From: Marinicella litoralis | GTDB lineage: Bacteria > Pseudomonadota > Gammaproteobacteria > Xanthomonadales > Marinicellaceae | Assembly: GCF_002591915.1 (NCBI RefSeq) | Contig: NZ_NIHB01000001.1 | Coordinates: 1,307,590-1,371,589 of the forward strand | DNA: 64,000 nucleotides | Direction: 5' to 3' | Shown here: positions 6,259 through 46,425 of the stretch, piece after piece | Layout: each line of letters opens with the position of its first letter | How positions within the stretch are numbered: the stretch's first letter is position 1 | Position numbers and translations under genes: made by a program | Notes under the pieces: model-generated | The model's database searches: none | Seen by the model: only the letters and a program-made list of their open reading frames with translations | Told to the model about the DNA's origin: nothing

Positions 6259-8184
6259 TCAAAACTGGTTTTCAAAGCCATCTTTAAAGATGATATCGAC
6301 GATTGTGACCTGAAGGGTGATTAGATTGTCGTCATTGGCAAAGCCACCCAGGGCGTTGATGGCAGAGCTGATATCTACAGCCGCGCCTGCATCACGCCAA
6401 CGGCCATCCCACAATCGAACTGACAAGGTGCCTGTGTCACCAGCAACACTGTCAGGATCTGGTAAAAATCGCAGCAGATCGTCAGGTTGCAAAACCAATG
6501 CGTTCAGGTCACTGGATGAGGCCACATCCTGCCAGCTACCGCCGCCAATTTGGGCCTGCCAGGTTCCACTGTCTGCTGCTGCACCACGTACAGCCACTCC
6601 GGCAAAGGCATCCACATCGTCATAAACTGAGCCAAACAGCTCATTGACTGATTGACCTTGCGGTTGTGGCCCACCAAGATTGGATGCGGGTAATTCAAGC
6701 ATACTGACTGTTGCTTTGGGTGCAGCATTGCCGAAAACCACCCAAGGCTTATCACCTGCGCTGTTATTCTCTCCCAACAACAGGTCGTCGACACCATCGT
6801 TGTTGATATCACCGGCCTTGGCTACGATGTTATATAAGCTGTCAACTCGAGTAGATTGAATGAGAAACCCATCGCTGCCATCTAAATCAGCCACATCCTT
6901 GGTAGCCGTAAAGCCGCTGTTACTGCCGAAAACAACGTAAACGCCTGCTTGTTCCTGAGCGAGTCCCGGGAAAGAGCCAAAGGCCAAATCCGCCAAACCG
7001 TCTCCATTGATATCTCCTACCATAGCCAAGTCCTCACCCAACGCCACAACATTGCCTCCAGTGATTGAAAATCCATCCGAGCCGTTCAAAGTAGTCACAT
7101 CAACATTGGCAGAAAACCCGTTCTGGCGGCCAAAAATCACATCGACAACACCATTGAGCTGGTTGTCTAGTCGGCGTGCTACGCTGACATCAGAAATTCC
7201 ATCGCCATTCATATCTCCGCCACCGGACGCAGTGTTTATGCCTTCATCACTGGTCGCTCCAACAATGGTGAATCCGGCAACGGTGCCATTCAGCGCCGAT
7301 ACATTGAGGTTTGCAAAGCCGATATTGTTACCCAGTAATACGGCAGCCTGACCAGGCGTCGCACCATCCCCACTTCGTGGATTGACCACGATAATATCAT
7401 CAAAATCATCATTGTTAAGATCGCCTGCAGTCGACATCTGAATACCCAGATTATCATCCGCATTGCCATTGAGGTGTAGTCCATTCATGCCATCAATTTG
7501 GCTCAGAGCGAACCCGGATGACCAATCATCGGTGCTGTTGGGAGGGCCGAATACCACTGATGCCCTGCCTTCAAACCCATTCCCAAACCAAGGGTCCGCG
7601 ACCAACAAGTCCCCGAAACCGTCATGATTGAAGTCACCGATTGAGGCGCCGACCAGCCAATCGTATATTTGAAAATGCTCGGCGCATGGAGGTGAGACAT
7701 TTCCTGGTAGGTTACAAGTGAGAGGGTCTGAAATGGGGTCTGTGTTTGTATTGCCCAGAAACAGGAAGTTTGTGCCGCTAGAGAAGTCGTCAAAGCCATC
7801 TAAATCAAAATCGCCAATTGCCGAAATATCTTGGCCGAAAGGTCCGTCAGCACATTGTTGTGGAGTGGAATGATTCGGGGTGGCTTGTATTCGTCGACCA
7901 TTGTTGCCATCAAGGTCCGACACGCTGAGAGGCACAGTCAACAAAGCAGCACTGCCGTAAAAAATTGAAACCTCTGCACAGGAAATTCGGCCACCGAGTG
8001 CGAAATCGGCAATGTTGTCACCGTTGAAATCCCCAATACCACCCATCGAGTAAATTTCATTGGTGGTTTCTATCGACCCGCCTTCAGAGGACGTTAACTG
8101 TTCAAGAACAATTAATTCTTGAGCGAGGATTGAAGTATTTGCTAACACGCATCCAAAAACAATCGCTGAAATTCTGGCTCGCAT
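6259..8184 (-). CDS. Exported FG-GAP (integrin-alpha-like) seven-bladed propeller protein
   Basis: A 641-residue secreted protein. The ATG at 8184 follows AGGAGT by 7 bases and gives a clean signal peptide (MRARISAIVFGCVLANTS). Seven FG-GAP motifs are visible, for example GDFNGDNIADFALGG, GDFDLDGFDDF, GDLNNDDFDDIIV, GDMNGDGISDVSV, GDINGDGLADLAFG and GDINNDGVDDLLLG, each with a calcium-binding-like DxDxDG loop. After the propeller (about residue 500) comes a bacterial cadherin-like module with GTWQAQIGGGSWQDV and LSVRLWDG. The last residues, DIIFKDGFENQF, carry a tail shared with three other exported proteins here. Probably a surface or secreted adhesion-type protein; partner unknown. Confidence 0.85.
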   Translation of the reverse strand: MRARISAIVFGCVLANTSILAQELIVLEQLTSSEGGSIETTNEIYSMGGIGDFNGDNIADFALGGRISCAEVSIFYGSAALLTVPLSVSDLDGNNGRRIQATPNHSTPQQCADGPFGQDISAIGDFDLDGFDDFSSGTNFLFLGNTNTDPISDPLTCNLPGNVSPPCAEHFQIYDWLVGASIGDFNHDGFGDLLVADPWFGNGFEGRASVVFGPPNSTDDWSSGFALSQIDGMNGLHLNGNADDNLGIQMSTAGDLNNDDFDDIIVVNPRSGDGATPGQAAVLLGNNIGFANLNVSALNGTVAGFTIVGATSDEGINTASGGGDMNGDGISDVSVARRLDNQLNGVVDVIFGRQNGFSANVDVTTLNGSDGFSITGGNVVALGEDLAMVGDINGDGLADLAFGSFPGLAQEQAGVYVVFGSNSGFTATKDVADLDGSDGFLIQSTRVDSLYNIVAKAGDINNDGVDDLLLGENNSAGDKPWVVFGNAAPKATVSMLELPASNLGGPQPQGQSVNELFGSVYDDVDAFAGVAVRGAAADSGTWQAQIGGGSWQDVASSSDLNALVLQPDDLLRFLPDPDSVAGDTGTLSVRLWDGRWRDAGAAVDISSAINALGGFANDDNLITLQVTIVDIIFKDGFENQF

Positions 8185-8627
8185 AATCACACTCCTGAGT
8201 CGATAAGACCGTAAGTTTACCAATAAATTATGTCAAACTTACCAGTACAAATCAAGAACATATATGAACCAATAGTGTAATTAATCCAGGAAATTAATTA
8301 GACATCGAATCATTGACAGACTTAAGGATTAAGGGGTTTACTGGAGAAACTCAGGATCCTTTACGTCATAAATTTAACCACATAGTAAATACCCAGCTCA
8401 TCAACACTGTTTTACTCACTGAAAGAAAGCTCAACCACTTCTTGTTTAGCGGAGACCTGTATGGTCATCAAAAGCTGTGATTGATTCACATAGGTAGACT
8501 GAAGTCTACAACCCAAACAAACTATCATTTCTACAATAATGAGGTCAAACCCTTTTGTAAAATTAAGTCAGCTGCTAATAGACAATCGTTCCGTTATAAT
8601 TATCAATTTTTCATTACAGGATTTGTT
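8185..8627. other. 443-base intergenic region between divergent genes
   Basis: This gap separates the FG-GAP gene (leftward) from a small secreted-protein gene (rightward). It contains a perfect 7-bp inverted repeat, GTAGACT/AGTCTAC at 8494-8509, and a TATAAT hexamer at 8595-8600, 28 bases before the rightward ATG, without a convincing -35. A 38-codon minus-strand frame (8412-8528) is open but has no ribosome site and is not called. I see no RNA gene. Confidence 0.4.
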
Positions 8628-9122
8628 ATGCGATTATTTCTATGCGGTGTATTTTTACTTTCTAGCCATGGCATTTCTGCGTTTGAAATAGAAAATTTTA
8701 AATCGGGTTCGGCTTGTACAGATAATCAGACATTTGGTTGGATTTGCCATAACAGCAAAGACATCTACGTCACAGGTCAAAGCAAATGCAAATGGAATGG
8801 TGAGTCAAAACCATGTACTTGGTATGGCTTTGAATTTGATTACAGTGACAATAAAAATGGCACTACCATTGAATGTACTTATCAACAATCCTATTCGGGC
8901 AGCATGGGTAACCCCAGTGAAGTCACTATTAAAGACGCTGATTCAGGTTCATATTCATTTGATTTAAAAGAAGCAAGCGGTCACTTTTATAACCCCCAAT
9001 ATATTATTTTAAACACTCGAAGCAAAGATGAAGCGCTGCTTGAAAGTCATACCATTTGCAAAGTCAACAATGAAAAGGTCTTTGAGTTTGGTTTCAACAT
9101 TCACTTCCCAATTTCAAAGTGA
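8628..9122 (+). CDS. Small secreted protein, unknown family
   Basis: A 164-residue protein. The ATG at 8628 is chosen because it follows ACAGGA and opens directly into a signal peptide (MRLFLCGVFLLSSHGISAF); a frame open further upstream would put a 49-residue polar extension before it. The mature part has six cysteines, including CTDNQTFGWIC and CKWNGESKPC, suggesting disulfides in the periplasm or outside the cell, and is rich in Ser, Asn, Tyr and aromatic residues as in small beta-sandwich proteins. I do not recognise a family. It lacks the IFxxxF tail found on other exported proteins in the window. Monocistronic. Confidence 0.65.
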   Translation: MRLFLCGVFLLSSHGISAFEIENFKSGSACTDNQTFGWICHNSKDIYVTGQSKCKWNGESKPCTWYGFEFDYSDNKNGTTIECTYQQSYSGSMGNPSEVTIKDADSGSYSFDLKEASGHFYNPQYIILNTRSKDEALLESHTICKVNNEKVFEFGFNIHFPISK

Positions 9123-9256
9123 ATCATGCTAAATATTAACTAAGTTCAATAAGGTCTGTATCCTTAGCTTGTGTAACAAGGTGCGCCAAATTCAATGTCA
9201 ACTATAAATTGATGGCCTGATAACACACCCCTCTCCAGCCTACAGTAGGTCCCTTA

Positions 9257-9278
9257 AGGCAGGGGGTCAATCCTGCCT
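9257..9278. repeat. Hairpin in a convergent intergenic gap
   Basis: AGGCAGG (9257-9263) pairs with CCTGCCT (9272-9278) across an 8-base loop, between the ends of two convergent genes. There is no T-run on either side, so it is at best a weak terminator. The 10-mer GGTCCCTTAA just before it (9248-9257) also occurs at 1346 in another convergent gap. Confidence 0.35.
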
Positions 9279-9342
9279 AATAACAACAGTCGTTTTAAGT
9301 CATCATGCTTATATTGGATTCATCCAATCAGTACCTCACCAA

Positions 9343-12300
9343 TCACTCAAAATCCCGCCCTGTGGTATAGGGTGCGCCGGCTGCTGTCAACGCGGCTTCA
9401 TAGTTGGCTAAATTTTTGAAATAAGCCTGCAAATCTGTGCGAAATTGACTGAAATCTGATGTGGCGATTTCAATGTTTCGCTGTTGGGTTTGGGTCGGTG
9501 GTTGTGTGGTGCGCCAATGTCCATACTCAACCAGACCAACCCTTGATCTGATGGATGGCGGGGCACTTTCATCCAAACTTTGGCGTACAGCATCGCCGTA
9601 TAGTCGGCTTTGTAAGGCAGCCAGGTCTTGTTGCAATTGGTTCAAATCAGCAAACATTTTTGGGGTGGCTTTGGGGGTTTCTAACAGCGCTGCTTGCAGG
9701 TGTTTTAACCGTTCACCCGCTTCGCTCAATTTTCTGCCCGCACTTGAGATTTGGCGCGACAGTTCACTGGTTTTGGCTTGAAAGGCCGTGGCGGTCTGAA
9801 AATCAGCAACGGGGGTTGAGTTGGCCACTGGTTTCACTTTGAACGCTTGCGTCGTGCCTTGAGCTTGCAGCGTGCCGTTGTGTGCCACATACAGCGCGAC
9901 ACGGTAGTTACCAGGTGCAGCCATGGGTCCTTCTGGATCGCCAGCCCAGGGTGGTTTGAAGGCGGGTTGGGTTAAACTGATGGGATCGGGTGCCGGTAAT
10001 TTCAAATCCCAACTGGCGCGGTGTAAGCCTGCCTTGGCTGAGCCTTTGATCCAACGCACAGGCTGGCCGTTTTCATGGTTGACCAACAACAACACCTGAG
10101 GCTCGGCTTGGTTGCTTTCTTGTAACAATTGATCCCAGCCAGGAAAGGGGATGTTGGCTTGTTTTTCTGTGAGGGCTTTTTCAGCATCCTCGCGGTGTTG
10201 TTTGGCCGTTTTTGGCACATCGTGCAGGTAGTAGGTAAATACGGCGCCAAAAGGTGGGTTTTCTGACGCGAAACTGGTGGTTCCCTGACCCGGCATACCT
10301 TTGGCTTGCATGGGTACACTGGGGACATACCACCAGGCATCCCTGACCGGAAAAAGGGTGTTGGTTTTGGCGCTGAGGGCGCTGCTGATGTGCCTCAGCG
10401 GAGAATAATCATCCAGCACATAAATACCACGACCAAAGGTGGCGCCAACCAAATCGGCTGCTCTTGGGTGCAATTCTAAATCACGAAAGGCAATGGTGGG
10501 TACGCCGGCGCTTAACTTGATCCAATGGGTGCCTTGATTGGGTGAAAAGTAAATGCCAAATTCAGTGCCAATGAACAACAAGTTCTCATCCACAGGGTCT
10601 TGTTTGATCACCCACACAAGGGTGTCTTTGGGTAAGTCACCGGCTATGGATTGCCAGCTGCGGCCCTGATTTTTACTGATAAACAAGTAGGGTTGGTAAT
10701 CACCCAATTTATGCGCGTCTGCCACTGCAAACACCGTGTCGGCAGCGTGACTGGATGCTTCAACGTCGTTGATAAAGGCGCGGGCTGGCACTTTGGGCAG
10801 GGTACTTTGTCGCCAGTTTTCACCACCATCCGGACTGACATGAATCAGTCCATCATCGGAACCGGTATACAACAAGCCTTCGATCTTGGGCGATTCTGAC
10901 AAAGCAGAAATGGTGGCATATTTTGACATGGCGCCATTGTCATAAAGGTCATCGACAGACCACACACGTTGGTCCATGGTTGTCAGTTCATATCGATTGG
11001 TGTTGGTGGTTAAGTCCCCACTGATGGGTTGCCATGAATGGCCTTGGTCATCACTCTGCCAGACCCGTTGTGAAGCAAAATAAAGGCGTTTGTGGTTGTG
11101 TGGACTGACTTGAATGGGACTGTCCCAATTCCAGCGTTCAGGTGGGTCATTGGGTTCCGGTTGGGGCTGAATGTTGATGACTTCATCGGTGCGTCGATCC
11201 AGCCGGTGTAAGGTGCCTTGTTGGATTTCTACATAAGCCATGTTGGCATCTTGTGGATCAAAAACAGCATCAGAGCCATCGGCACCCAGCGCCACATACC
11301 AATCTTGGTTACGCACACCTTCGGTATTCAGGGTTCTGGAAGGGCCAATTAAGGTGCCTAAATCTTGGGTGCCGCCAACGATGTTATAGAATGGTTCGGC
11401 GTTATCCAGACTGATTTTGTAGAATTGGGCAATCGGCATATTGGGGAAATGCCGCCAAGTGGTGCCCTCATCATAACTTTCATACAAGCCCCCGTCGGTG
11501 CCAGAAATCAGATGTTTCCCATCATCGGGGTCAATCCAAAGGGCGTGGTTATCACTGTGCTTTTCACGACCTGTTCCCAGATAATCAAAGGTTTTACCGC
11601 CATCGCGTGAGACGTGATAGAACACATCCATTTGATAAATCAGCTCGGGATTTTGTGCTGAGGCTTCAATCTCTTGGTAGTAATGTGGACCGGTGCCTCC
11701 AGAGATGTAACTGTTTCGTTTCTCCCAACTTTCTCCTTTGTTCAGTGATCGATAAAAGCCTTTTTCCTGATCAGTGGCCTCAATGGTGGCATACACGATG
11801 TCAGGATTGGCCGGCGTCACAGCCAGTCCAATTTTACCCACATCGCCTTTGGGCAGGCCGGTTTTGACTGGGTGCCATGTGTCTCCATTGTTGGTGGATT
11901 TGTAAATGCCTGAGTTGGGACCGCCGGCTAAAAATGACCAGGTTTTTCTTTGTCTTTGGTAAGCGGCGGCGTAGATGACGTCCGGGTTGGATGGGTCAAA
12001 TTCAATGTCAGTCACACCGGTGTTTTTATCAATGACGAGCACCCCTTGCCAGGTGGTGCCACCATCGGTGGATTTGAACAAGCCACGTTCACCGCCTGAA
12101 GACCACAGTGGACCTTCAGCTGCCACCAACACCACATCGCTGTTGCGTGGATCGATTAAAATTTTTCCAATGTGTTCAGAGGTCTCAAGCCCCATGTGCT
12201 GCCAAGTTTTACCACCATCCTTACTTTTATAAACACCATCGCCCCAAGCCACATGGCGACCACTGACATTTTCCCCAGTGCCCAGCCAAATGACTTCTGC

Positions 12301-12618
12301 GTTGTTGGGATCAATGGTGACGGTGCCAATGGAATATGATTTTTGGCTGTCAAAGATGGGATGCCAAGTGGTGCCTCGGTTGGTGGTTTTCCACAGGCCA
12401 CCTGATCCAACAGCCACGTACCAAGTGCTTTTATCGGTATGACTCACCGCTATGTCAGCAATGCGTCCGCCCATCAATGCTGGACCAATGCTGCGCATGT
12501 GAAGGCCAGAAACCGCTTTGCTTATGGCTTCATGGTTGATCGTTTTTGCCAAAACATGGGATGCGGGTAAAAAAAGGAGGGTGATTAAAAGAGCAAAGGC
12601 AAAGCGATTTTTCAACAT
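9343..12618 (-). CDS. Very large exported BNR/sortilin-type (VPS10-like) propeller protein
   Basis: A 1091-residue protein with a signal peptide (residues 1-24, ending HVLA). Residues about 40-760 hold many BNR/Asp-box units of the S-x-D-x-G-x-T-W type, such as TTNRGTTWHPIF, SKDGGKTWQHM, STDGGTTWQGV and SPDGGENWRQS, forming one or two beta-propellers as in the bacterial WD40/YVTN/BNR-like family often called glycosyl hydrolase. The C-terminal 300 residues include an Ig-like segment (GLHRASWDLKLP, PGNYRVALYV) and a helical hairpin rich in Gln and Leu. Length matches the family (about 1000-1100). No catalytic function is established for such proteins. Likely periplasmic or outer-surface; single-gene unit. 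Confidence 0.85.
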   Translation of the reverse strand: MLKNRFAFALLITLLFLPASHVLAKTINHEAISKAVSGLHMRSIGPALMGGRIADIAVSHTDKSTWYVAVGSGGLWKTTNRGTTWHPIFDSQKSYSIGTVTIDPNNAEVIWLGTGENVSGRHVAWGDGVYKSKDGGKTWQHMGLETSEHIGKILIDPRNSDVVLVAAEGPLWSSGGERGLFKSTDGGTTWQGVLVIDKNTGVTDIEFDPSNPDVIYAAAYQRQRKTWSFLAGGPNSGIYKSTNNGDTWHPVKTGLPKGDVGKIGLAVTPANPDIVYATIEATDQEKGFYRSLNKGESWEKRNSYISGGTGPHYYQEIEASAQNPELIYQMDVFYHVSRDGGKTFDYLGTGREKHSDNHALWIDPDDGKHLISGTDGGLYESYDEGTTWRHFPNMPIAQFYKISLDNAEPFYNIVGGTQDLGTLIGPSRTLNTEGVRNQDWYVALGADGSDAVFDPQDANMAYVEIQQGTLHRLDRRTDEVINIQPQPEPNDPPERWNWDSPIQVSPHNHKRLYFASQRVWQSDDQGHSWQPISGDLTTNTNRYELTTMDQRVWSVDDLYDNGAMSKYATISALSESPKIEGLLYTGSDDGLIHVSPDGGENWRQSTLPKVPARAFINDVEASSHAADTVFAVADAHKLGDYQPYLFISKNQGRSWQSIAGDLPKDTLVWVIKQDPVDENLLFIGTEFGIYFSPNQGTHWIKLSAGVPTIAFRDLELHPRAADLVGATFGRGIYVLDDYSPLRHISSALSAKTNTLFPVRDAWWYVPSVPMQAKGMPGQGTTSFASENPPFGAVFTYYLHDVPKTAKQHREDAEKALTEKQANIPFPGWDQLLQESNQAEPQVLLLVNHENGQPVRWIKGSAKAGLHRASWDLKLPAPDPISLTQPAFKPPWAGDPEGPMAAPGNYRVALYVAHNGTLQAQGTTQAFKVKPVANSTPVADFQTATAFQAKTSELSRQISSAGRKLSEAGERLKHLQAALLETPKATPKMFADLNQLQQDLAALQSRLYGDAVRQSLDESAPPSIRSRVGLVEYGHWRTTQPPTQTQQRNIEIATSDFSQFRTDLQAYFKNLANYEAALTAAGAPYTTGRDFE

Positions 12619-12691
12619 AATAAAATCTCGTTAGTTGGTTGTGAATATAACTTAATTAATCTAAACACAAATAGCAAGCATAAACAGGGCC

Positions 12692-12871
12692 ATGGAAATG
12701 CAATGGAAGGGTGTTGTTCAAAGCAATTATTGGATTGTTGACTTCAGCCTACCGCAATGTAATGCGTCAGGTTTTGGGTTGATTAAAGTGTACAAGCCAC
12801 AAGATGTTTTCCTTATCTATAGTCCTTTGGGAATTCAGAAGAGTCGTATAAATTTTGGTCATATCCAATAA
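12692..12871 (+). CDS. Possible 59-residue protein or gene fragment
   Basis: In the 342-base gap between the divergent BNR and GFA genes, an ATG-started frame encodes 59 residues with a protein-like composition (GVVQSNYWIVDFSLPQCN, then SGFGLIKVYKPQDVFLIY). Aromatic and hydrophobic spacing suggests a small beta domain. The upstream site is weak (CAGGGCC) and no signal or known motif is seen. It could be a real short gene or a decayed fragment. Nothing else is identifiable in the gap except an AGGAGA site before the GFA gene. Confidence 0.3.
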   Translation: MEMQWKGVVQSNYWIVDFSLPQCNASGFGLIKVYKPQDVFLIYSPLGIQKSRINFGHIQ

Positions 12872-12960
12872 AATAATGGTGATAGAATGATATTTTCGCC
12901 CATTGAATTCAGTAGGCACATCAAAATTTTAAAGTTACAAATCATTAATAGGAGAAAGCG

Positions 12961-13467
12961 ATGAACAGTACAGTCGATGGTTGCGAGGGGGGATGTGCAT
13001 GTGGCAAGGTGCGGTATCAATTGAATACAGCACCATTGATAGTTCATTGTTGTCATTGTCGCTATTGCCAACGGCAGACAGGCTCTGCATTTGCGATCAA
13101 TGCCCTGTATGAAACCAGCCAGGTCAAATTGTTGAGTGGGGTGGTTGATAAAATTGTCACCCCTTCGCCAAGTGGCAAGGGACAAACCATTGCACGATGT
13201 GCTGAGTGTCACGTGGCCCTTTGGAGTCATTACTTTATGGGTGGGATCGATAAATTGATCAGCTTTATTCGGGTTGGCAGCTTGGATAACCCTGATTTAT
13301 TACCACCTGATGTTCATATATTTACTGAAAGCAAACAGTCCTGGGTATTGTTACCGCCAGATACATTGGTCGTTCAGGAGTTTTACAATTATGCAACGAC
13401 TTGGAGCGCTGAGAATCAATTGATTCGAAAGCAACTGCTGGAAAAGTCTAAATCACTGGCTAAATAG
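12961..13467 (+). CDS. GFA-family (glutathione-dependent formaldehyde-activating enzyme-like) protein
   Basis: A 168-residue cytosolic zinc protein of the GFA/CENP-V fold. Metal-ligand cysteines are visible in the expected order: CEGGCACGKVRY (residues about 8-19), CCHCRYCQRQTGSAF (about 31-45) and CAECHVALW (about 80-88). The family name comes from an enzyme linked to formaldehyde-glutathione adducts, but most paralogues have no proven reaction. An AGGAGA site lies 6 bases before the ATG. No neighbouring formaldehyde gene is present, so function should be kept at family level. The protein ends with a short lysine-rich helix. Confidence 0.85.
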   Translation: MNSTVDGCEGGCACGKVRYQLNTAPLIVHCCHCRYCQRQTGSAFAINALYETSQVKLLSGVVDKIVTPSPSGKGQTIARCAECHVALWSHYFMGGIDKLISFIRVGSLDNPDLLPPDVHIFTESKQSWVLLPPDTLVVQEFYNYATTWSAENQLIRKQLLEKSKSLAK

Positions 13468-13522
13468 TGAGCCAGTAGGGGCAGTTTGAAGTATGAAAGG
13501 TATCAGAATTATTTAATGGGGC

Positions 13523-13981: not shown

Positions 13982-14036
13982 TTCACACTGCGTTAAAGGG
14001 TATTAAATGATAAACCAAAATTGTAAATTTAGACAT

Positions 14037-14066
14037 AAAAAAACCAGATGAATACACATCTGGTTA
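14037..14066 (-). terminator. Rho-independent terminator of the DUF2383 gene
   Basis: A perfect 9-bp stem, AACCAGATG / CATCTGGTT, with a 6-base loop, is followed on the minus strand by a T-run (A-run at 14037-14043 on the plus strand). It lies 29 bases after the DUF2383 stop codon. Confidence 0.85.
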
Positions 14067-14094
14067 TTAAACTTGTGATTTATTGTTCAATCAA

Positions 14095-25789: not shown

Positions 25790-27025
25790 TCAATCAAACC
25801 CACTGCCAAAGATGACATCCTGGTTCACTTCCACCGAACCTGCGTCACAGGAAATGCCATTGGGCCTAGAGTCGCCACGTTGATCGATTAACAAGAGATT
25901 ACCGTAAGCATTCAGGCAAGCGGCATTGGGTACCAGGTCAATGGCAGGGCTGCCTGTTAATGGTAAAAATGTGTCGGTGGGACCGCCATGGTTGGATAAA
26001 CCTGACAGCATGGCATCGGTATTCTCAGCATCTCCAACTGCACTGAATTCACAACTGACGTCATTGACAATGTTATATCCTGCTGAGGTGGGTTTATCAC
26101 CGCTTTGACAATTATCGATAAAGGCAGCAGGGTCTGTGTATAAAATCGAATGACCTATGTTCATGAATTGGCTGTCATCAAAACTGAAGTGTGAGAGGTT
26201 TTGTGCCGTATCTGAAACGAAGGTACTGAATCTGATGACGGCATCGGAGTTAGTGGTTCTGATGCCTCCTCCACTGTTGTCGGTCATGGTGCTGTTGGTC
26301 ATGAATAAACTGCCGCCATCGAGTTCTATGGCTTTGCCACCCAAGTTGTTGCGCTGGAAAGTTGAACTGTCAATGCCTAAGTCACAAGATGAACAATAAA
26401 TCGCAGGGCCAAAAATATTGGTAAACCCCAGATTTTCGGTGAAATTGTCAACAAATTGGGCGTTTGTTATAAAGACTTCTGCCAAACTGATGAATAAGCC
26501 CCCGCCAATGTTGGCACTGTTAGAAACCACTTTGACGTTGTCGATATTGACCTGGGTCATGTTACCAGAAATGAGCATGGCACCACCCACGTTTGCACTG
26601 ACAGTGCCCGCCCTGCCAGCTGTCAATGTCAGGTTTAAGATATTGAACATGCCATTGTTGGCCACATTGAAAATTCGAAAGTTTTGATTGCCGTCAATCA
26701 CCGTGGCATCCACCCCTTGGCCAATGACAGTGATGTCAGCATTGTTGACGTTTAAATCTCCAGCAAAGGCATCGTTTTCTTCACCCATGATGGTTAATTC
26801 ATGCACGCCCGCGGCCAATTCAATGGTGTGGCTACCTCCCAGGGCATTGGCTTCTATAATGGCAGCGCGCAGACTACAAAAACCAAAACCAATTGGAATT
26901 TCACATACACCATCACCTGGGTTATTATCAATGTCATCTCCCAATGCAATGACTTGGAAAGTCAATGCATGAGCCTGTCCAAAAAAGAAAATCAAAGCGA
27001 TCATAAGCAGTTTTTTGATATTCAT
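25790..27025 (-). CDS. Exported right-handed beta-helix protein with choice-of-anchor Q domain
   Basis: A 411-residue protein with a signal peptide (about 1-20, ALIFFFGQAHA) and AGGAG before the ATG. The CSLRAAIIEANALGG opening and parallel beta-helix body (IDNVKVVSNSANIGGGLF, TMTDNSGGGI) are typical of polymorphic-outer-membrane-like or CSLREA-type surface proteins, and PLTGSPAIDL to DQRGDSRPNG is the choice-of-anchor Q segment. The last residues DVIFGSGFD carry the IFxxxF tail shared by four proteins here. Likely a secreted or outer-surface protein. It sits upstream of the amidohydrolase on the same strand with a 103-base gap. Confidence 0.85.
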   Translation of the reverse strand: MNIKKLLMIALIFFFGQAHALTFQVIALGDDIDNNPGDGVCEIPIGFGFCSLRAAIIEANALGGSHTIELAAGVHELTIMGEENDAFAGDLNVNNADITVIGQGVDATVIDGNQNFRIFNVANNGMFNILNLTLTAGRAGTVSANVGGAMLISGNMTQVNIDNVKVVSNSANIGGGLFISLAEVFITNAQFVDNFTENLGFTNIFGPAIYCSSCDLGIDSSTFQRNNLGGKAIELDGGSLFMTNSTMTDNSGGGIRTTNSDAVIRFSTFVSDTAQNLSHFSFDDSQFMNIGHSILYTDPAAFIDNCQSGDKPTSAGYNIVNDVSCEFSAVGDAENTDAMLSGLSNHGGPTDTFLPLTGSPAIDLVPNAACLNAYGNLLLIDQRGDSRPNGISCDAGSVEVNQDVIFGSGFD

Positions 27026-39101: not shown

Positions 39102-40555
39102 GCCAAAGCACAAACAGTATCGACTGGGAAATGGTGATAGGTCTAGAAATCCATGTTCGCTTGGATACCATGAGCAAACTGTTTTCCGGCATGAAAGCCA
39201 GCTATGGTGCATCACCCAACAGTCAGGTCAGTTTTTTGGATGCCGGCTTGCCTGGCACTTTACCTGTGATTAATCACAAAGCCATCGAATATGCGTTGCG
39301 TTTCGGTCTTTCTGTTGATGCAGAAATTCCATCGGTTACTGTGTTTGCCAGAAAAAATTATTTCTATCCGGATTTACCCAAAGGTTACCAAATCAGTCAA
39401 ATGGACGATCCGATAGTTGGCAAAGGACATATTGTGATTAACACCGATGACGGTGAAAAAACGGTAGAAATCACCCGTGCCCACTTAGAAGAAGATGCGG
39501 GTAAATCGATTCATGATAAATACGACCAGTATTCAGCCATTGATTTGAACCGTGCCGGTACCCCTTTGATAGAAGTGGTTTCCGAACCACAAATGTCAAA
39601 TGCCAAAGAGGCAGTTGCTTATATGCGAGCGATATATACTCGAGTGACGCATTTAGGTATTTGTGATGGCAACCTGCAAGAAGGCTCATTCAGGTGTGAT
39701 GCCAATGTGTCCGTGCGGCCCAAAGGACAAACCACATTAGGTACGCGGGCTGAGATTAAAAATTTGAATTCGTTCAGGTTTATTGAAAAAGCCATTAATC
39801 ATGAAGCCAAACGCCAAATCAAAATATTGGAGTCTGGCGGCAGAATCGTTCAAGAGACTCGACTTTATGATGCGGAAAATGACCAAACAAGATCAATGCG
39901 CAGCAAAGAGAATGCCAACGATTACCGTTATTTCCCAGACCCAGACCAATTGCCCATTCAGATCACCACAGCGATGATTGACGCCCAACGGGCTCATTTA
40001 CCAGAGTTTCCTGAAGCAAAAATCAAACGTTATGTGGCCGATTTGGGTTTGAAATTGGAAGACGCCGACACCATTGCCAATGATCTGAACCTGTCTCGCT
40101 TTTATGAACAAAGCTTGGCACAATCAACAGCCGCAGCAGATTTCAATGCAAAATTTCTGCTGGGCGAATTCAATGCATTGTTAAACACACATGGCACTGC
40201 CATAGCAGAGAGTCGAATCAGTGCTGATCATTACGCCGGTTTACTCGATGAGTTGCATGCAGGCACCGTCTCGCGTAAAGTGGCCAAACAAATCTTGGAT
40301 GACATGTGGGAAAGTGGCCAAGATGCCAAGGGAATCATTGCCGATCAAGGCTTGGGTCAAATATCAGATTCATCTGAGTTGACAGTGTTGATTGACCAAT
40401 TGATTAAAGATCACCCAGAACAAGTTGCCAGCTACCGCAGTGGCAATGAAAAAATGTTCAACTTTTTTGTTGGGCAAATCATGAAACAAACCAAAGGACA
40501 GGCCAACCCTGTGCAAACCAAACAAATTTTAGAGGATAAATTAAACAATGAGTAG
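39098..40555 (+). CDS. gatB: Asp/Glu-tRNA amidotransferase subunit B
   Basis: A 485-residue subunit with GLEIHVRLDTMSKLFSG (residues 14-30), GLPGTLPVIN, KNYFYPDLPKGYQISQ (about 87-102) and FRCDANVSVRPKGQ, plus a C-terminal YqeY-like tail that binds tRNA. It phosphorylates and amidates the misacylated tRNA. The gatCAB set implies that Gln-tRNA, Asn-tRNA or both are made indirectly here. Overlaps the PfkB gene by 8 bases. Confidence 0.98.
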   Translation: MSQSTNSIDWEMVIGLEIHVRLDTMSKLFSGMKASYGASPNSQVSFLDAGLPGTLPVINHKAIEYALRFGLSVDAEIPSVTVFARKNYFYPDLPKGYQISQMDDPIVGKGHIVINTDDGEKTVEITRAHLEEDAGKSIHDKYDQYSAIDLNRAGTPLIEVVSEPQMSNAKEAVAYMRAIYTRVTHLGICDGNLQEGSFRCDANVSVRPKGQTTLGTRAEIKNLNSFRFIEKAINHEAKRQIKILESGGRIVQETRLYDAENDQTRSMRSKENANDYRYFPDPDQLPIQITTAMIDAQRAHLPEFPEAKIKRYVADLGLKLEDADTIANDLNLSRFYEQSLAQSTAAADFNAKFLLGEFNALLNTHGTAIAESRISADHYAGLLDELHAGTVSRKVAKQILDDMWESGQDAKGIIADQGLGQISDSSELTVLIDQLIKDHPEQVASYRSGNEKMFNFFVGQIMKQTKGQANPVQTKQILEDKLNNE

Positions 40556-41483
40556 AGCACTAATCTGTGGGTCTTTGGCCTTTGATAACATCATGGTATT
40601 TGAAGATGAATTTGCCAATCACATATTGCCAGATCAAATACATAAACTGAACATTTCTTTTATGGTTCCTACCTTGAGTCGAGTTTTTGGTGGCGTGGCA
40701 GGGAACATTGCATATAACCTCAAAATGATTGGTGGTAAACCCGTACCCATGGGTGTGGTTGGTAGTGATTTTGATGTTTACGGTCAGCGATTGAAAAGCT
40801 TGGGTATTTCATTGGAAGCGGTGAAAACCAAAGAAGGGCATTTTACGCCTCAGGCTTACATCACCACTGATTTAAAAAACAATCAAATCACGGCATTCCA
40901 TCCTGGAGCAATGAATTTTTCACATGAAAACCATGTCAAAGATTATGAGAACATAGACATCGGTATTGTGGGTCCAGATGGCCGTGATGGCATGATTCAA
41001 CATGCGCAAGAGTTTGCCGATTCAGGCATTCCATTTATTTTTGACCCAGGTCAAGCCATGCCTTTGTTTGATGGAGACGACCTGAAACAATTTATAGAAC
41101 AGGCCACGTGGATGGCTGTGAATGATTATGAATATGAACTGGTTCATGATCGAACAGGTATGGATGCTCGAGCCATTGCGGCTCAATTGGATGCTTTGAT
41201 TGTGACCCGTGGTGAGAAAGGATCCGAAATTTATGCCGATGGCACCATGTACCACATCCCAGTGGTTAAAGCCAATAAAGTGGTCGATCCAACGGGTTGT
41301 GGCGATGCTTATCGCGCCGGCTTGTTGTATGGTTTGACCAATGAGTTGGATTACCAAACCACAGGGCGCATTGCCAGTTTGTTGGGCAGCATCAAAATTG
41401 CCAGCGCAGGTACGCAGAATCACTACATTTCAAAAAAGGATTTCCGTCAAAGATTCAACGAAGAGTTTGGTTATAATTTCTGA
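40548..41483 (+). CDS. PfkB-family carbohydrate or nucleoside kinase
   Basis: A 311-residue kinase. FGGVAGNIAYNLKMIGG (about 47-63) is the substrate-binding GG motif and DPTGCGDAYRAGLLYG (about 246-261) is the PfkB signature with the catalytic Asp and anion hole. The short size and the SFMVP near residue 38 resemble adenosine kinase-like members, but ribokinase-type sugar specificity cannot be excluded. It overlaps gatB, so it is read from the gatCAB promoter, and is followed by a terminator. Confidence 0.9.
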   Translation: MSRALICGSLAFDNIMVFEDEFANHILPDQIHKLNISFMVPTLSRVFGGVAGNIAYNLKMIGGKPVPMGVVGSDFDVYGQRLKSLGISLEAVKTKEGHFTPQAYITTDLKNNQITAFHPGAMNFSHENHVKDYENIDIGIVGPDGRDGMIQHAQEFADSGIPFIFDPGQAMPLFDGDDLKQFIEQATWMAVNDYEYELVHDRTGMDARAIAAQLDALIVTRGEKGSEIYADGTMYHIPVVKANKVVDPTGCGDAYRAGLLYGLTNELDYQTTGRIASLLGSIKIASAGTQNHYISKKDFRQRFNEEFGYNF

Positions 41484-41507
41484 CTGAGTTTATCATTCAG
41501 ATTCAAA

Positions 41508-41540
41508 GCCTTGGCACTGTTGTGGTCAGGGCTTTTTTTA
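41508..41540 (+). terminator. Rho-independent terminator of gatCAB-pfkB
   Basis: AAAGCC...GGCTTT forms a long, slightly imperfect stem (arms about 41509-41522 and 41525-41535) with a T7 run at 41533-41539. It overlaps the end of a small minus-strand gene, so it may serve both strands. Confidence 0.75.
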
Positions 41541-41714
41541 TGGCTTGGGCTTGAGGCTTGTCTTGCTTTTTGTTTTGGCTTTGATCAGGCAATTTTTCGA
41601 TGGGAAGAACTGCAGGTCATCGGCCTCATCTGATGTTTGACCCACCAATAAATCCAACTGAAACTCAGTGGGCTTGAATGGGATTTCTGCTTGTTTGGAA
41701 TCTTTTGATTTCAT
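41538..41714 (-). CDS. Possible 58-residue small protein, leaderless
   Basis: An ATG-started frame in the 386-base gap between the PfkB and rppH genes. It encodes 58 residues: an acidic middle (VGQTSDEADDLQFFPS) and a basic tail of repeated Lys (IKAKTKSKTSLKPKP). There is no Shine-Dalgarno, but TATAAT lies 6 bases before the ATG, as in leaderless messages; the -35 is weak. It ends in the PfkB terminator. No family recognised; a real small protein is possible but unproven. The rest of the gap (41715-41869) has no other feature. Confidence 0.4.
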   Translation of the reverse strand: MKSKDSKQAEIPFKPTEFQLDLLVGQTSDEADDLQFFPSKNCLIKAKTKSKTSLKPKP

Positions 41715-41869
41715 GCTGGAATTATATCAATGACTTGAACGGTTCGAAAAGTAAAATTTTTTGGCGTTAGCGGTATTTTGATGGAACATAGGAATCAAGA
41801 TAGCTAAATATCTTGCTCAAATTTCATTTTTTTGAAACAATGGTGGCAGTTTAAAAATTTTATATCATC

Positions 41870-42346
41870 ATGATTGATCGAGATGGTTTTAGGCCCAATG
41901 TGGGCATCATCTTGCTCGACAATGCAGGTCAAGTGTTTTGGGCCAAGCGAACCAGAGGCAATGGTTGGCAGTTTCCACAAGGGGGTATCAATACCGATGA
42001 ATCCCCGGAAGAGGCCATGTTTAGAGAGTTATATGAAGAAGTGGGGTTGAAACCTCACCATGTGGATGTTTTGGGATCGACCCCCGGTTGGTTAAAATAC
42101 CAGTTACCTAAAAAATTCCACAAACGCGACTCTGACCCGTCATTTGTAGGGCAAAAACAAGTGTATTACTTGCTTAAGTTGCTAGAAGACGAATCCAAAG
42201 TGGACTTCAACACAACTCAAAAGCCAGAATTTGAAGATTATCGCTGGGTTAATTTCTGGTATCCGGCTGAAAATGTCATCCACTTCAAAAAAGGGGTCTA
42301 TAAACGTGCCCTGAAACATTTGGAATTCCTGACCAAACAAATATGA
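41870..42346 (+). CDS. rppH: RNA pyrophosphohydrolase
   Basis: A 158-residue Nudix hydrolase that removes the 5' pyrophosphate from mRNA to begin its decay. The Nudix box is GGINTDESPEEAMFRELYEE followed by VGL (about residues 38-60), and the N-terminal MIDRDGFRPNVGIILLDN plus the W-x-P-Q-G segment are RppH-type. It shares an ATGA overlap with the next gene. Confidence 0.95.
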   Translation: MIDRDGFRPNVGIILLDNAGQVFWAKRTRGNGWQFPQGGINTDESPEEAMFRELYEEVGLKPHHVDVLGSTPGWLKYQLPKKFHKRDSDPSFVGQKQVYYLLKLLEDESKVDFNTTQKPEFEDYRWVNFWYPAENVIHFKKGVYKRALKHLEFLTKQI

Positions 42347-43227
42347 GTATTGCGGTCATCATCACTGACCGCAATACCGATGAATTGTGTACACAATTGG
42401 CTGCACAGTTACCACATGTAAAAATCCAACAGTGGCCTGATATTCCCGATCCAGAGTCGGTTCAATTGGCGGTGCTGTGGAATCACCCTGAAGGCATTAC
42501 CCAACCCATGCGTCACTTAAAAATGGTGGTTTCAATGGGAGCTGGGATGGACCACATTGATGCCGATCCATTCTTGGCTGCTGATGTCATTCGCCAAAGG
42601 ATTGTGACCTTGGCCTTGAAGCAAAATATGGCTCAATATGTGTTACAACCCATATTGGCAGTACACAGGCAGCACAAAGCCTACCAGGTCCAACAGGCTA
42701 AGCAACAATGGCAGGTTTTAGAAACTGCAGAAAAAACCCCGCTCATCGGTTTTTTGGGTTTGGGTGAATTGGGTCAGTTTTTGGCTGACCAATGTGCAGC
42801 ATTGGGGTTTGCAACGATGGCCTGGACCCGTTCTCAAAATAACCGAAACCACCGATGTTTTCATGGTGATTTGGGGTTACAACAAGTTTGTAGTGCCAGT
42901 GATTTTTTGGTGGTTTTGTTGCCGTTAACCACAGCAACCCATGGCATCATAAATTTAAAAACATTGTCTTGGTGCAAACCAACGGCCCGTTTAATCAATG
43001 TGGCTCGCGGTGGTCATGTTATTGAGCCTGAATTGATAACAGCCTTGGATAAAGGCCTGATCAATCATGCTGTGTTGGATGTTTTTCAACAAGAACCACT
43101 GCCACCCAAGCATCCATTTTGGACCCACCCCAAAATCACCATAACACCTCACAGTTCAGCCCGTTCTGATGTCAAGCAAACCGCAGAACACATTGTGGCT
43201 TATTACCAGCAAATCCAGGCTTATTGA
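42343..43227 (+). CDS. GhrA-like 2-hydroxyacid dehydrogenase
   Basis: A 294-residue NAD(P)-dependent oxidoreductase. IGFLGLGELGQFLADQCAAL (about 133-152) is the dinucleotide-binding GxGxxG, NVARGGHVIE (about 225-234) carries the catalytic Arg, DVFQQEPLP the Glu region and PHSSA the His. Layout matches glyoxylate/hydroxypyruvate reductase A. Overlaps rppH by 4 bases (ATGA), so cotranscribed. Substrate is by analogy. Confidence 0.88.
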   Translation: MSIAVIITDRNTDELCTQLAAQLPHVKIQQWPDIPDPESVQLAVLWNHPEGITQPMRHLKMVVSMGAGMDHIDADPFLAADVIRQRIVTLALKQNMAQYVLQPILAVHRQHKAYQVQQAKQQWQVLETAEKTPLIGFLGLGELGQFLADQCAALGFATMAWTRSQNNRNHRCFHGDLGLQQVCSASDFLVVLLPLTTATHGIINLKTLSWCKPTARLINVARGGHVIEPELITALDKGLINHAVLDVFQQEPLPPKHPFWTHPKITITPHSSARSDVKQTAEHIVAYYQQIQAY

Positions 43228-43328
43228 CCAACAGGTCATTGCCTGAACCAATTAATCAAAAAATAATGTCCTCTCTACCCTGAAAACCTCGTAAAGCCAA
43301 GTAACGTTCAATTATTTAGGAAAAAGTG

Positions 43329-45182
43329 ATGAGGAATTTAATTGTATTTATTTGTTTACTGTTGGGCTTGTCTGAAGTCAGTTATGCTGGCAATAATTAT
43401 GTGGTCGTGGGGCCTGCCAGTGATCCTGATTGCGATTTCAGTACGATTCAAGCTGCCATCAATGGCATTGCCCAAACACAAGGCTCGATTTTAGTTTCTT
43501 CTGAGAATGGCGCCGCTTCATACAATGAAAACATAGTGATTGATGGCAAAGCTTTGGTAATCAGAGGTGGGTATGCCAGTTGTACAAATGCGCAGAACGA
43601 TCTATATATTCAAGGTGATCCAAATACTTATGTTGATGGTGGTGGCAATGGCCCTACCTTCAAGCTATTCAATGATGCTCGGGTAGACTTGTATAATTTT
43701 GAAATCACCGGAGGTAATGGTTCTTTGGGTGGTGGAATTGAATCCATCAATTCAATCATCAGAGTCTTGCGCTCAGAAGTTCACAGCAATTCGGGCGGTT
43801 ATGGTGGTGGCATTTATGTTCATCATGACAACATCCCAAGTGCTGGGTCAACATTTGAAGTCAGAGATTCTGTGGTGGCCGGCAACAACGCTGTATTTGC
43901 CGGAGGTGGGGTCTATTGCAGCAATGGTCGTGGTTTGATTGATGAAAACTCCGGCATTTCTGCCAACCAAGCCAGCGGAGTCAATGGGGACGGTGGCGGC
44001 ATGTTTTTGTCTTTTTGTGACATCGATTTTTATGGTGGTACCACCAAAGCTGCGTTCCCATCTGACTGGAGCAGTTACAATGGCATCAAACAAAATTCAG
44101 CCAACCGCAATGGTGGTGGTATTTTCGCGGTTTCTTCCCTGGTTAATTTATTTGGCGCTGAACATGACTTTGGACAATTGGGCATTTATGGTACGAACAG
44201 CACACCGATGAATATACAAGACAATGTAGCGGATGCTGACAATGACTTGAACGGTTCTGGTGGTGGGATTTACTTGTTGGGCCAAATGCTGTCACCGGCC
44301 AGTGTCATCATTGAGAACGGCTTGATTGAGAACAACCGAGCCTATAACGGGGGCGTGATTTACCAAGGTTTTAATTCAATCGCAAAGATATGGAATTTCG
44401 TCAACGTCACTGATAATAACCCCTGTTGGAGTGAGGAATGCAGTGTGATCAAAAACAACACAGCCACCAATTCAGGCGGTGTTATTCATGCCGAAGGTGG
44501 CAGCAGCTTATCAATCAGACAAAGCCACCTTTCAGATAACAGGGCAGATTATGGTTCTGTGATTTCATTGGATGGTACGCTTGGTGAAATCAATGCCAGC
44601 TTAAGTCAAAATTTAATCGTTCACAATGGACGAGATGGTGTTGGTGAATACAGTGATTTAAGCAGCTTTAATTTATACAACAATTCGGCTGTCATTGAAC
44701 AAATTCAAACCAATATAACCATGAGTCACAATACCATAGCTGATAACCACAACACCCAAGGTGTCATTGTAACCAATGGTGTACATATCAATTTAGGGGT
44801 GTTCAGCAGTATTTTGAGCGATCATGACACACCGAAAATAGGCGACTTCTTTAGTATTGCCAGTGACTATGACTTTGATTGTGTCAACACCAACAATTCA
44901 AGTTCATTAGACAGTGCCTATACCACTCGGACTCGAATGGATTCTAGCTTTCCAGGTTTTGTGTCAAGAAATTACGACTATCGTATAAAACAAGCCGCGG
45001 CTACTGAAGATTTTTGTGATGACAGTTTATTACCTATGGGTGAGCCGACCAGAGACCTTGAAAACAAGTATCGACCACATGATAATCTGAATTACATTGA
45101 CTTATATGGCAGCTGGGATTTGGGTGCTTATGAAGTCATTGAAGCCAGTGATGTGATTTTTATCGATAAATTTGATTGGTAA
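43329..45182 (+). CDS. Exported parallel beta-helix protein
   Basis: A 617-residue protein. The ATG at 43329 follows AGGA and gives a signal peptide (MRNLIVFICLLLGLSEVSYA). A right-handed beta-helix follows, with turns marked by GGGIYVHHDN, GGGVYCSNG, GGGMFLSFC, GGGIFAVSS, GGGIYLLGQ and GGVIHAEGG, a polymorphic-outer-membrane-like pattern. The C-terminus DVIFIDKFDW carries the shared IFxxxF tail. Likely secreted or displayed at the surface. A terminator follows at 45207-45232, so the LRR gene has separate initiation. Confidence 0.8.
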   Translation: MRNLIVFICLLLGLSEVSYAGNNYVVVGPASDPDCDFSTIQAAINGIAQTQGSILVSSENGAASYNENIVIDGKALVIRGGYASCTNAQNDLYIQGDPNTYVDGGGNGPTFKLFNDARVDLYNFEITGGNGSLGGGIESINSIIRVLRSEVHSNSGGYGGGIYVHHDNIPSAGSTFEVRDSVVAGNNAVFAGGGVYCSNGRGLIDENSGISANQASGVNGDGGGMFLSFCDIDFYGGTTKAAFPSDWSSYNGIKQNSANRNGGGIFAVSSLVNLFGAEHDFGQLGIYGTNSTPMNIQDNVADADNDLNGSGGGIYLLGQMLSPASVIIENGLIENNRAYNGGVIYQGFNSIAKIWNFVNVTDNNPCWSEECSVIKNNTATNSGGVIHAEGGSSLSIRQSHLSDNRADYGSVISLDGTLGEINASLSQNLIVHNGRDGVGEYSDLSSFNLYNNSAVIEQIQTNITMSHNTIADNHNTQGVIVTNGVHINLGVFSSILSDHDTPKIGDFFSIASDYDFDCVNTNNSSSLDSAYTTRTRMDSSFPGFVSRNYDYRIKQAAATEDFCDDSLLPMGEPTRDLENKYRPHDNLNYIDLYGSWDLGAYEVIEASDVIFIDKFDW

Positions 45183-45206
45183 TTAACTGCTGGTTTTAGC
45201 TTTACA

Positions 45207-45232
45207 GCCGCCGCTGTTCAGAGGCGGTTTTT
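45207..45232 (+). terminator. Rho-independent terminator
   Basis: GCCGCC pairs with GGCGGT-type arms (CCGCC at 45208-45212, GGCGG at 45223-45227, 10-base loop), followed by a T-run (45228-45232). It ends the beta-helix gene. Confidence 0.75.
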
Positions 45233-45282
45233 ACTGATGAAAACAGCCGAGAAGCTTTATTGTTGAACCTGTTTCATTGATA

Positions 45283-46425
45283 ATGTTTGGCATGAACGTT
45301 TTACTTTCTCGATGTATATTGTTGGTACTTTGTTGGTATTTGACGATGAATGTGGCTCGAGCTGATTTGGATTTCAATACTGTGTGCTTTCAACCAGGGA
45401 TGAATGCGCCTACATTGGAATGTAATGCATTGGTCAATTTATACAACATCACAGGTGGTGATCATTGGTTCAACAACAGCAATTGGGGCAGCGCCGATGT
45501 TAACAGTTGGTATGGGGTCAGTGCATTTGGCCCTGTTGAGTTGAACGTATGGTTTTTGGAGTTGGCCGGTAATAATTTAAATGGAATCATTCCATCGAAT
45601 TTGAGCGCTTTGACCGAGTTGCGGCGGATGGATTTGGGTCAGAACGACTTGTACAGTTTCATCCCCAGTGAATTTGGTCAATTGCTTAATCTTGAAGTTT
45701 TACTTTTAGGGGATAACCACCTTGATGGGGTGGTTCCAGCCAGTTTATCTGCTTTGTCTCAGCTGCGTATTTTACAACTCCAAAACAACCAATTGACAGG
45801 ACAGATCATGCCACAAGTGGTTGGGTTAAGTGCGCTGGCGACGCTGTGGATTGATAACAATGAATTCATAGAAACCATTCCTGCTGCGATTGGACAAATG
45901 TCATCTTTGGCCTATTTTTCAGCTTGGAACGTTGGTTTTTATGGGCAATTGCCCAATGCCCTGACCACACTGGACCAATTGGAGTATTTGTTTCTACTGG
46001 GAAATGAAATCAGTGGTAAATTACCAGAATGTATGGGCTTGATGTCTTCGCTGCGACAAGTTGATTTGAGTGGCAACCAACTCACAGGACAGTTGCCTGA
46101 ATCATTGGGCTTTTTAACCAATTTTAATTTTATCAGCTTAAATGACAACCAATTGTCAGGTTCAATCCCAGCGTCTTGGAGTCAAATGACTTTGCTACAA
46201 GGGTTTTACTTGAACAACAACCGTTTAACCGGCTTGGTACCCATTGGTTTTGGTGAAATGAGTCTGATGAATCAGTTTTTCCTCAATGGCAATGACTTTG
46301 ATAACCCGGTAATTCCTCCGGAAATTGATGCTTGGTATCAACAAATACCGAACAAGAGCATCACACCACAGGGCATGAGTGAAACCCTCTTTTATGCTGA
46401 TTTTGATGGCAGTTGTGGATTTTAA
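45283..46425 (+). CDS. Exported plant-type leucine-rich repeat protein
   Basis: A 380-residue protein with a signal peptide (LLSRCILLVLCWYLTMNVARA). An N-terminal cap (ALVNLYNITGGDHWFNNSNW) is followed by about ten 24-residue plant-type LRRs: LELAGNNLNGIIPSNLSALT, LLLGDNHLDGVVPASLSALS, LQLQNNQLTGQIMPQ and VDLSGNQLTGQLPESLGFL. The tail SETLFYADFDGSCGF includes the IFxxxF-like motif found on other exported proteins. Surface recognition is likely; ligand unknown. Start may be the ATG at 45283 or 45292. Its stop overlaps the end of the convergent lipoprotein gene. Confidence 0.82.
   Translation: MFGMNVLLSRCILLVLCWYLTMNVARADLDFNTVCFQPGMNAPTLECNALVNLYNITGGDHWFNNSNWGSADVNSWYGVSAFGPVELNVWFLELAGNNLNGIIPSNLSALTELRRMDLGQNDLYSFIPSEFGQLLNLEVLLLGDNHLDGVVPASLSALSQLRILQLQNNQLTGQIMPQVVGLSALATLWIDNNEFIETIPAAIGQMSSLAYFSAWNVGFYGQLPNALTTLDQLEYLFLLGNEISGKLPECMGLMSSLRQVDLSGNQLTGQLPESLGFLTNFNFISLNDNQLSGSIPASWSQMTLLQGFYLNNNRLTGLVPIGFGEMSLMNQFFLNGNDFDNPVIPPEIDAWYQQIPNKSITPQGMSETLFYADFDGSCGF

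Follow-up and report, generated by a model that had tools for sequence, protein, structure and literature searches.

The C-terminal sorting sequences described for exported proteins include GlyGly-CTERM, which combines a Gly/Ser-rich motif, a hydrophobic region, and positive residues and is cut by an intramembrane protease in the rhombosortase system, as set out in PMC3237569 and PMC6219818. VesB of Vibrio cholerae bears GlyGly-CTERM and is at the same time cargo of the type II secretion system (T2SS). Passages of the same source (PMC12369372) report that part of the cargo depends on the GspC PDZ domain, that the secretion information of VesB can be grafted onto another protein and resides in an Ig fold, and that a linear universal T2SS signal is lacking. 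Flexible loops or segments can serve as T2SS signals, according to part of PMC7949064. Here we describe a short tag, D-[LVI]-I-F-x-[DNH]-G-F-[DE] (with Arg for Gly in one genus), starting from four genes of Marinicella litoralis in a 64,000-nucleotide stretch of contig NZ_NIHB01000001.1 (positions 1,307,590 to 1,371,589; hereafter the window). It is a real terminal tag on exported proteins over much of one order, the Lysobacterales, and its abundance tracks a second T2SS (T2SS-B) across that order, with exceptions. The best overall explanation, at a probability of roughly 0.45, is that it is a portable recognition tag bound by T2SS-B, which would recruit folded exported cargo.

The first-pass annotation of the window had proposed a whole-genome search for the tail. 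In the 3.35-Mb window genome, the DNA pattern [ILVF]-F-x-x-G-F-[DE] matched 95 times, and the reversed pattern used as control matched 11 times. Sixty lie no more than 32 residues before the stop of an open reading frame (ORF) of at least 80 amino acids, most others fall in short frames, one (L077) sits right after a signal peptide, and two are inside the window. A regular expression over nonoverlapping ORFs gave 56 tailed proteins, and 54 were retained for the consensus and domain scans, leaving out a chance match in a cytosolic protein (L115) and one in a masked stretch (L130). The consensus given above is that of these 54 tails, with D in 44, [LVI] in 43, I in 53, F in 54, any residue, [DNH] in 45, G in 54, F in 53, and [ED] in 54; the F, G, F, and [DE] positions are mostly fixed by the search pattern, while D, [LVI], and [DNH] are free of it. 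The stop follows within 0 to 5 residues of the core in 50 of the 54 tails (maximum, 15), and the acidic last core residue is itself the chain end in 28. Neither a membrane helix between the motif and the C terminus nor a basic cluster at the extreme C terminus was seen in the 54. The tag is no copied DNA repeat, since 53 of the 54 cores differ in nucleotide sequence and synonymous codons are mixed.

The tag is conserved independently of the residues that precede it, and it occurs in tandem or at either terminus. Conservation was measured over 147 pairs of homologous tailed proteins, which share members and were chosen for having the tail, so that tail identity is somewhat inflated. Mean identity over the full length was 45%; the five core positions reached 90%, the two variable tail positions 36%, the eight residues that precede the tail (the linker) 24%, and the last 78 amino acids before the tag 45%. 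Among the 78 pairs with 25 to 40% overall identity, the core stood at 89% and the linker at 16%. Because the core is far more conserved than the linker, the tail is probably more than the final strand of some shared domain, an explanation that the first-pass annotation had left room for. Tandem C-terminal tags occur in L061, L078, and L089 of the window genome (e.g., DLIFEDGFDPFIDLIFIDGFE), and the motif stands directly past the signal peptide in five exported proteins (L077, L227, L312, L319, and L334). The ORF of L227 is complete and carries no C-terminal copy, and the other four run off the sequence stretch examined. The copies right after a signal peptide disfavor C-terminal cleavage or transpeptidation as well as a strict need for a free carboxylate, and together with the tandem copies they argue against C-terminal cleavage. 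In L099 (3809-5059) and L229 (4787-7675), tags are followed by a short Ser/Trp-containing extension (GFESGDVSSWSMTCP and GFDSATGWSCAP) that recalls what we take to be the starts of jelly-roll domains and may hint at the origin of the tag.

In the window, an ending of the form [ILVFMA]F-x3-F-[DE] no more than 10 residues from the stop is found in 4 of the 58 ORFs of at least 90 amino acids. These are exactly the four genes singled out earlier as signal-peptide proteins with near-identical tails, and all of them are present as described:

6259 to 8184, minus strand: FG-GAP repeat exported protein, tagged (PF01839, E value 2.1e-16).
6262 to 6297, minus strand: tag DIIFKDGFENQF of the FG-GAP protein, C-terminal and typical; 3 residues follow the core.
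25790 to 27025, minus strand: exported choice-of-anchor Q protein (NF041518), tagged; the domain match ends at residue 401 and the tag is at residues 403 to 411.
25793 to 25819, minus strand: tag DVIFGSGFD, at the extreme C terminus of the choice-of-anchor Q protein.
43329 to 45182, plus strand: exported repeat protein with a variant tag; weak match to the POMP repeat, TIGR01376.
45150 to 45179, plus strand: tag DVIFIDKFDW, with Lys instead of Gly, at the C-terminal end of the 43329-45182 product.
45283 to 46425, plus strand: exported leucine-rich-repeat protein with the least typical tag (PF00560, E value 1.1e-23).
46378 to 46422, plus strand: tag SETLFYADFDGSCGF, core LFYADFD, at the C-terminal end of the leucine-rich-repeat protein.

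An ATG start was taken for 6259-8184; the ORF list has this frame begin at 8223, with TTG. A signal-peptide-like N-terminal segment was found in all four proteins by a crude script. The tails do sit on differing proteins, but the earlier description of four unrelated folds was loosely put, two of the four being beta-helix-like. None of the listed NCBIfam or Pfam matches to the four proteins extends into the tail, a result to be read with the caution that HMMER filters may drop a nine-residue model. In G384, a genome of the same family without a T2SS secretin, the same ending test found none among the 447 ORFs of a 380-kb sample, and it also found none among 145 ORFs at T2SS loci in tail-poor genomes.

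Almost all bearers of the tag are exported proteins. Among 53 closed tail ORFs (L094 and L112, with open 5′ ends, and L130 were left out), a signal peptide was found in 42 by the crude script and in 9 of the other 11 by eye, giving 51 of 53; the same script found a signal segment in 141 of 282 untagged ORFs of the same stretches, membrane proteins included. The two bearers without a signal peptide are L131, which is a fragment, and L115, which is evidently cytosolic and has its match 21 residues from the end. The first-pass annotation would have been refuted by tails at chance frequency on cytosolic proteins, and this is not what the 53 ORFs show. Two tagged DUF1501 proteins carry RR signals of the twin-arginine translocation (Tat) type. 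Domain scans of the 54 bearers, taking the best 25 families of each library, identified subtilase, M14, M28, reprolysin, FG-GAP, lactonase, endonuclease I, ExeM/NucH nuclease, LapA-type aminopeptidase, and choice-of-anchor Q and D domains. The bearers are predicted to be Sec- or Tat-exported proteins of unrelated folds; relatives of LapA and ExeM are T2SS cargo elsewhere.

The tag is found mainly in the Lysobacterales. When GTDB contigs were scanned, D-x-I-F-x-[DN]-G-F-[DE]-stop matched in at least 115 stretches, at least 108 of them with a tailed ORF. Among the matches listed, 76 belong to Lysobacterales (Marinicella, Dokdonella, Pseudofulvimonas, Rudaea, and others), 22 to Gammaproteobacteria without an order, 7 to "Alcanivoracaceae" metagenome-assembled genomes (MAGs), 1 to a Planctomycetales MAG, and 9 to contigs without a class. 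The Planctomycetales stretch (L228) holds a 412-amino-acid ORF ending in DLIFTNGFE, a case of misbinning or transfer. Across 369 genomes of the class, the window genome (60 matches) and G367 (23 matches) stand out, both of them of this order, and the others have no more than 13 raw matches. Counts range from 0 to 94 in 250 genomes of the order, with high values in most of the window genome's family and in several other families; families f2 and f3 have a median of 1 match and seven genomes at 23 to 84. No description of the tag was found in the literature searched (title listings), and it is undescribed as far as that shows.

The first-pass annotation had proposed looking for a partner gene whose presence correlates with tail number, and the second T2SS secretin (type B) correlates in this way, with exceptions. 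It is distinct from the Xps-like type A and is encoded in a gspC-gspD-gspE-gspF cluster (T2SS-B) whose GspC ends in a PDZ domain; ftsE/ftsX-like genes often come next. GspD, GspE, and GspF of the cluster score 491, 632, and 442 bits against curated cut-offs of 351, 630, and 424, and GspC reaches at best 70 bits, below its curated cut-offs, with T2SSC and PDZ domains that pass those of Pfam. A PDZ match was found in all six type-B GspC proteins tested (four of them over Pfam's cut-off; one of the six is the Xcs-like copy of G425) and in none of five type-A GspC proteins. The PDZ region of GspC-B matches the PDZ domains of DegP and DegS in sequence.

Among 40 hand-picked genomes searched with a T2SS secretin model, two secretins over the cut-off were present in 21 of 21 tail-rich genomes, and the 19 tail-poor genomes had one secretin in 14 cases, none in 2, and two in 3 (one of these in genus g282). 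We then compared tag counts with a type-B GspD search over 250 genomes of the order, 176 of them at least 95% complete. In these 176, genomes with at least 10 tags comprised 45 with type B and 5 without, and those with fewer than 10 tags comprised 16 with and 110 without (Fisher's P of about 1e-22, genomes being treated as independent). At 20 or more tags, type B was found in 57 of 62 genomes and in 39 of the 41 that are at least 95% complete. When the apparent misses were reexamined, G514 proved to have a full copy, G482 a fragment at a contig edge, and G526, G477, and G575 fragments, leaving only G541 (81% complete) as a tail-rich genome without type B outside g282. Among genomes at least 95% complete outside g282, type B is present in 40 of 40 tail-rich ones (net count of at least 20) versus 11 of 124 others, and several of those 11 carry 11 to 21 matches. 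In G384 (4.7 Mb, 100% complete, from the window genome's family), the T2SS and the tag appear to be lacking together: no T2SS secretin matched, and the 380-kb sample held no tailed ORF.

If the association between the tag and type B is functional, genus g282 should carry a variant of the tag, since 27 of its 30 genomes have type B (the three without it are 73 to 84% complete) and G-type tags are absent, the matches in G376, G401, and G458 being internal, antisense, or in short frames. The genus was first accepted as a counterexample, and this was overturned by a sample of G401 consisting of twenty evenly spaced 20-kb stretches (400 kb, 346 ORFs). Ten of the 346 ORFs end in F-x-[DS]-R-F-E (e.g., DIVFSDRFEQ and AVIFLDRFEETQD), compared with none of the 447 in nineteen stretches of G384 (Fisher's P = 0.0002); six of the ten have a signal peptide by script, and two more are cut at the 5′ end. 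A relaxed stop-adjacent pattern gave 27 matches versus 6 for the control in ten g282 genomes. The other genomes of the genus were scored as tagged by extension. With this scoring and a net count of at least 20, among genomes at least 95% complete, 52 tail-rich genomes have type B and none lacks it, while those that are not tail-rich comprise 11 with type B and 113 with neither. At a net count of at least 10, 59 genomes are tagged with type B, 3 are tagged without it, 4 have type B only, and 110 have neither; G459 is tabulated as tag bearing without type B, though its matches show no clear tail.

A partner was also sought among the neighbors of tag genes. The recurring clusters there include tagged families, an extracytoplasmic function (ECF) sigma factor with a Ser/Thr kinase (6 to 7 loci), one unnamed family (7 loci), and ordinary genes; no sorting enzyme was recognized by eye among these clusters. 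Next to the T2SS-B cluster of the window genome (L268, 13594-16990, on C12) lies an ECF sigma factor gene (PF07638), and after it one for a Ser/Thr kinase that has TPR repeats; similar-looking sigma factor and kinase families recur beside tag genes at L072, L161, L205, L232, L236, and L243. Such a pair is a possible regulator of the exported set.

Taken together, the genome counts support the T2SS link well, the independent events weakly, and we infer that the tag serves type II secretion in the periplasm, as an address or as a label for retention. Cargo would reach the periplasm by Sec or Tat, and once it had folded the flexible tag would be bound by T2SS-B, probably as an added beta-strand, with the GspC PDZ domain or the GspD N-domains as candidate receptors. 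T2SS-B would then recruit the tagged cargo for export, and it may also keep this cargo at the cell surface. Tat cargo, which folds before it is exported, is in its folded state in the periplasm, and the T2SS exports folded Sec and Tat cargo. The entry of bearers by both routes therefore fits a T2SS and argues against machines that need unfolded cargo. The tail is short and hydrophobic-acidic and has a very low predicted local distance difference test (pLDDT) score in both AlphaFold models, as have large parts of the same C-terminal regions; in the model of 25790-27025, the block pLDDT is 32 and 27 at the tag, and residues 304 to 369 are also poor. The models thus lean slightly toward a flexible tail, and on the simplest reading the part of T2SS-B that spans the periplasm would bind the tail as a flexible peptide. 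More tentatively, the tag may be a linear, portable, and position-tolerant T2SS address that a second, dedicated T2SS of the Lysobacterales reads directly through its PDZ-bearing GspC or the N-domains of its secretin, with tag and receptor coevolving (Gly type in most genera, Arg type in g282); this version in its full detail is possible but doubtful.

Several observations weigh against recruitment by T2SS-B. Two genomes of family f189 have only type-A GspD and are tagged all the same, G461 (98% complete) with 11 C-terminal tags and 1 after a signal peptide, and G427 (97% complete) with 7 C-terminal tags and 2 after signal peptides; other f189 genomes with 6 to 9 raw matches are also type A only. 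Conversely, in the 2.5-Mb genome G593 (L258) the type-B secretin is divergent, GspC ends in a PDZ domain, and there are 0 matches; G382, G373, G446, G491, and G540 have type B with 0 to 4 matches to the G-type pattern; and no tags accompany the Xcs-like PDZ GspC system of G425. The tagged status of g282 was assigned post hoc from a single sampled genome. Few independent co-changes were found when independent pairs were counted on a tree of GspD-A from 56 genomes. If g282 counts as tagged and the threshold is at least 20 tags, 5.5 are in the same direction and 0 in the opposite (P of 0.03 to 0.06; 56 rows), falling to P = 0.25 for complete genomes only, and at least 10 tags gives 2.8 versus 0.2. 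Without that scoring, the values are 5.1 versus 0, 3.0 versus 0.7, and 2.0 versus 0.8 at thresholds of 20, 10, and 6 tags. The loci of T2SS-B hold 4 tag genes in 387 kb versus about 7 expected at the density of the window genome; physical linkage was seen in G000, G400, and G474, but the total is not above the genome-wide density, and linkage was set aside. The relaxed pattern gave 3 matches versus 0 for the control in the T2SS-less G384, yet its 380-kb sample held no tailed ORF. Genes gspG to gspK, GspL, and GspM were not recognized in the window-genome cluster (Pfam) or among the families shared by B-loci, a search confined to those loci, and the genome-wide profiling covered the secretin and the tag patterns out of all gene families that might share this distribution. 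Finally, the Asp or Glu at the last core residue, the 0 to 15 residues after it, and the copies at the mature N terminus fit poorly with the classical contact between a PDZ domain and a C-terminal carboxylate; the N-terminal copies and variable ends led us to disfavor both that mode of binding and C-terminal cleavage.

Surface retention is nearly as good an explanation as binding by T2SS-B, though likewise tentative. The T2SS would export its cargo by other features, the tag would bind a surface receptor (an outer-membrane protein or lipopolysaccharide) as a noncovalent counterpart of GlyGly-CTERM or MYXO-CTERM, and T2SS-B would correlate with the tag as the exporter of surface proteins. Relatives of tagged proteins bear other anchors elsewhere (e.g., those with choice-of-anchor domains), there are matches to rhombosortase- and myxosortase-dependent families (probably via shared domains such as the InhA-like MAM), and tandem copies would raise avidity. 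Retention also suits f189 better, as it would let this family keep its tags with T2SS-A alone. No receptor gene was found, however, and by itself retention leaves the presence of T2SS-B in tag-rich genomes unexplained.

The first-pass annotation had suggested a sorting or processing signal acting outside the inner membrane. Its sorting part is supported by the export of 51 of 53 bearers, by conservation apart from the linker, by the modularity of the tag and its occurrence mainly in one order, and by its association with a second T2SS; its processing part is not. Cleavage at the tag by a protease or transpeptidase, with attachment of the protein to the envelope as by sortases, exosortases, and the type IX secretion system (T9SS), would agree with the C-terminal position in most bearers, but it is improbable given a tail that lacks a membrane segment or basic cluster, varies in its distance to the stop, ends exactly at the last core residue in 28 of 54 chains, and stands just after the signal peptide in five proteins. 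We consider it more improbable still that the tag is a quality-control signal read by periplasmic PDZ proteases of the DegS/DegP type. The resemblance of the GspC-B PDZ to those of DegP and DegS means that such peptides could bind these proteases too; to our knowledge they are near universal, whereas the tag occurs mainly in the Lysobacterales and at a varying distance from the C terminus. An equally slight chance attaches to the tag having no present function, as an ancestral ending of exported proteins kept by descent and lost in crown families with other genes, T2SS-B included. The small number of independent co-changes on the tree speaks for this reading, but the reading accords poorly with a core at 89% and a linker at 16% identity in pairs that are 25 to 40% identical (chosen for the tail), with 53 of 54 distinct nucleotide sequences, and with the many unrelated folds.

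If the tag is a linear address read directly by T2SS-B, it would be the first shared linear T2SS signal. How the T2SS selects its cargo is an open question, and a short tag on dozens of proteins per genome, easily deleted or grafted, would make selection directly testable. Even if surface retention is true, the tag predicts much of the order's exoproteome from sequence and gives its choice-of-anchor proteins an anchor absent from the libraries and papers searched.

Type I secretion (T1SS) cargo has no Sec signals, and the C-terminal domains of T9SS cargo are folded domains of about 70 to 80 residues. Both resemble the tag in being C-terminal, sequence-encoded secretion information, but the bearers described here combine Sec or Tat signals with a nine-residue tag. 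GlyGly-CTERM, in the papers cited at the outset, is likewise a C-terminal homology region on many exported proteins; the tag differs as a nine-residue soluble motif without the parts of that tail, and it can sit at the mature N terminus. The MYXO-CTERM/myxosortase system, as portrayed in part of PMC11980579, similarly involves dozens of tagged proteins per genome in one taxon, but it has an invariant Cys and a tripartite architecture, and the tag has no such Cys or helix. In VesB the information lies in an Ig fold, according to the part of that source drawn on here, whereas here a linear tag is common to dozens of exported proteins. By analogy, we infer that the tag may take the place of GlyGly-CTERM, MYXO-CTERM, and PEP-CTERM tails, without their membrane helix or cleavage.

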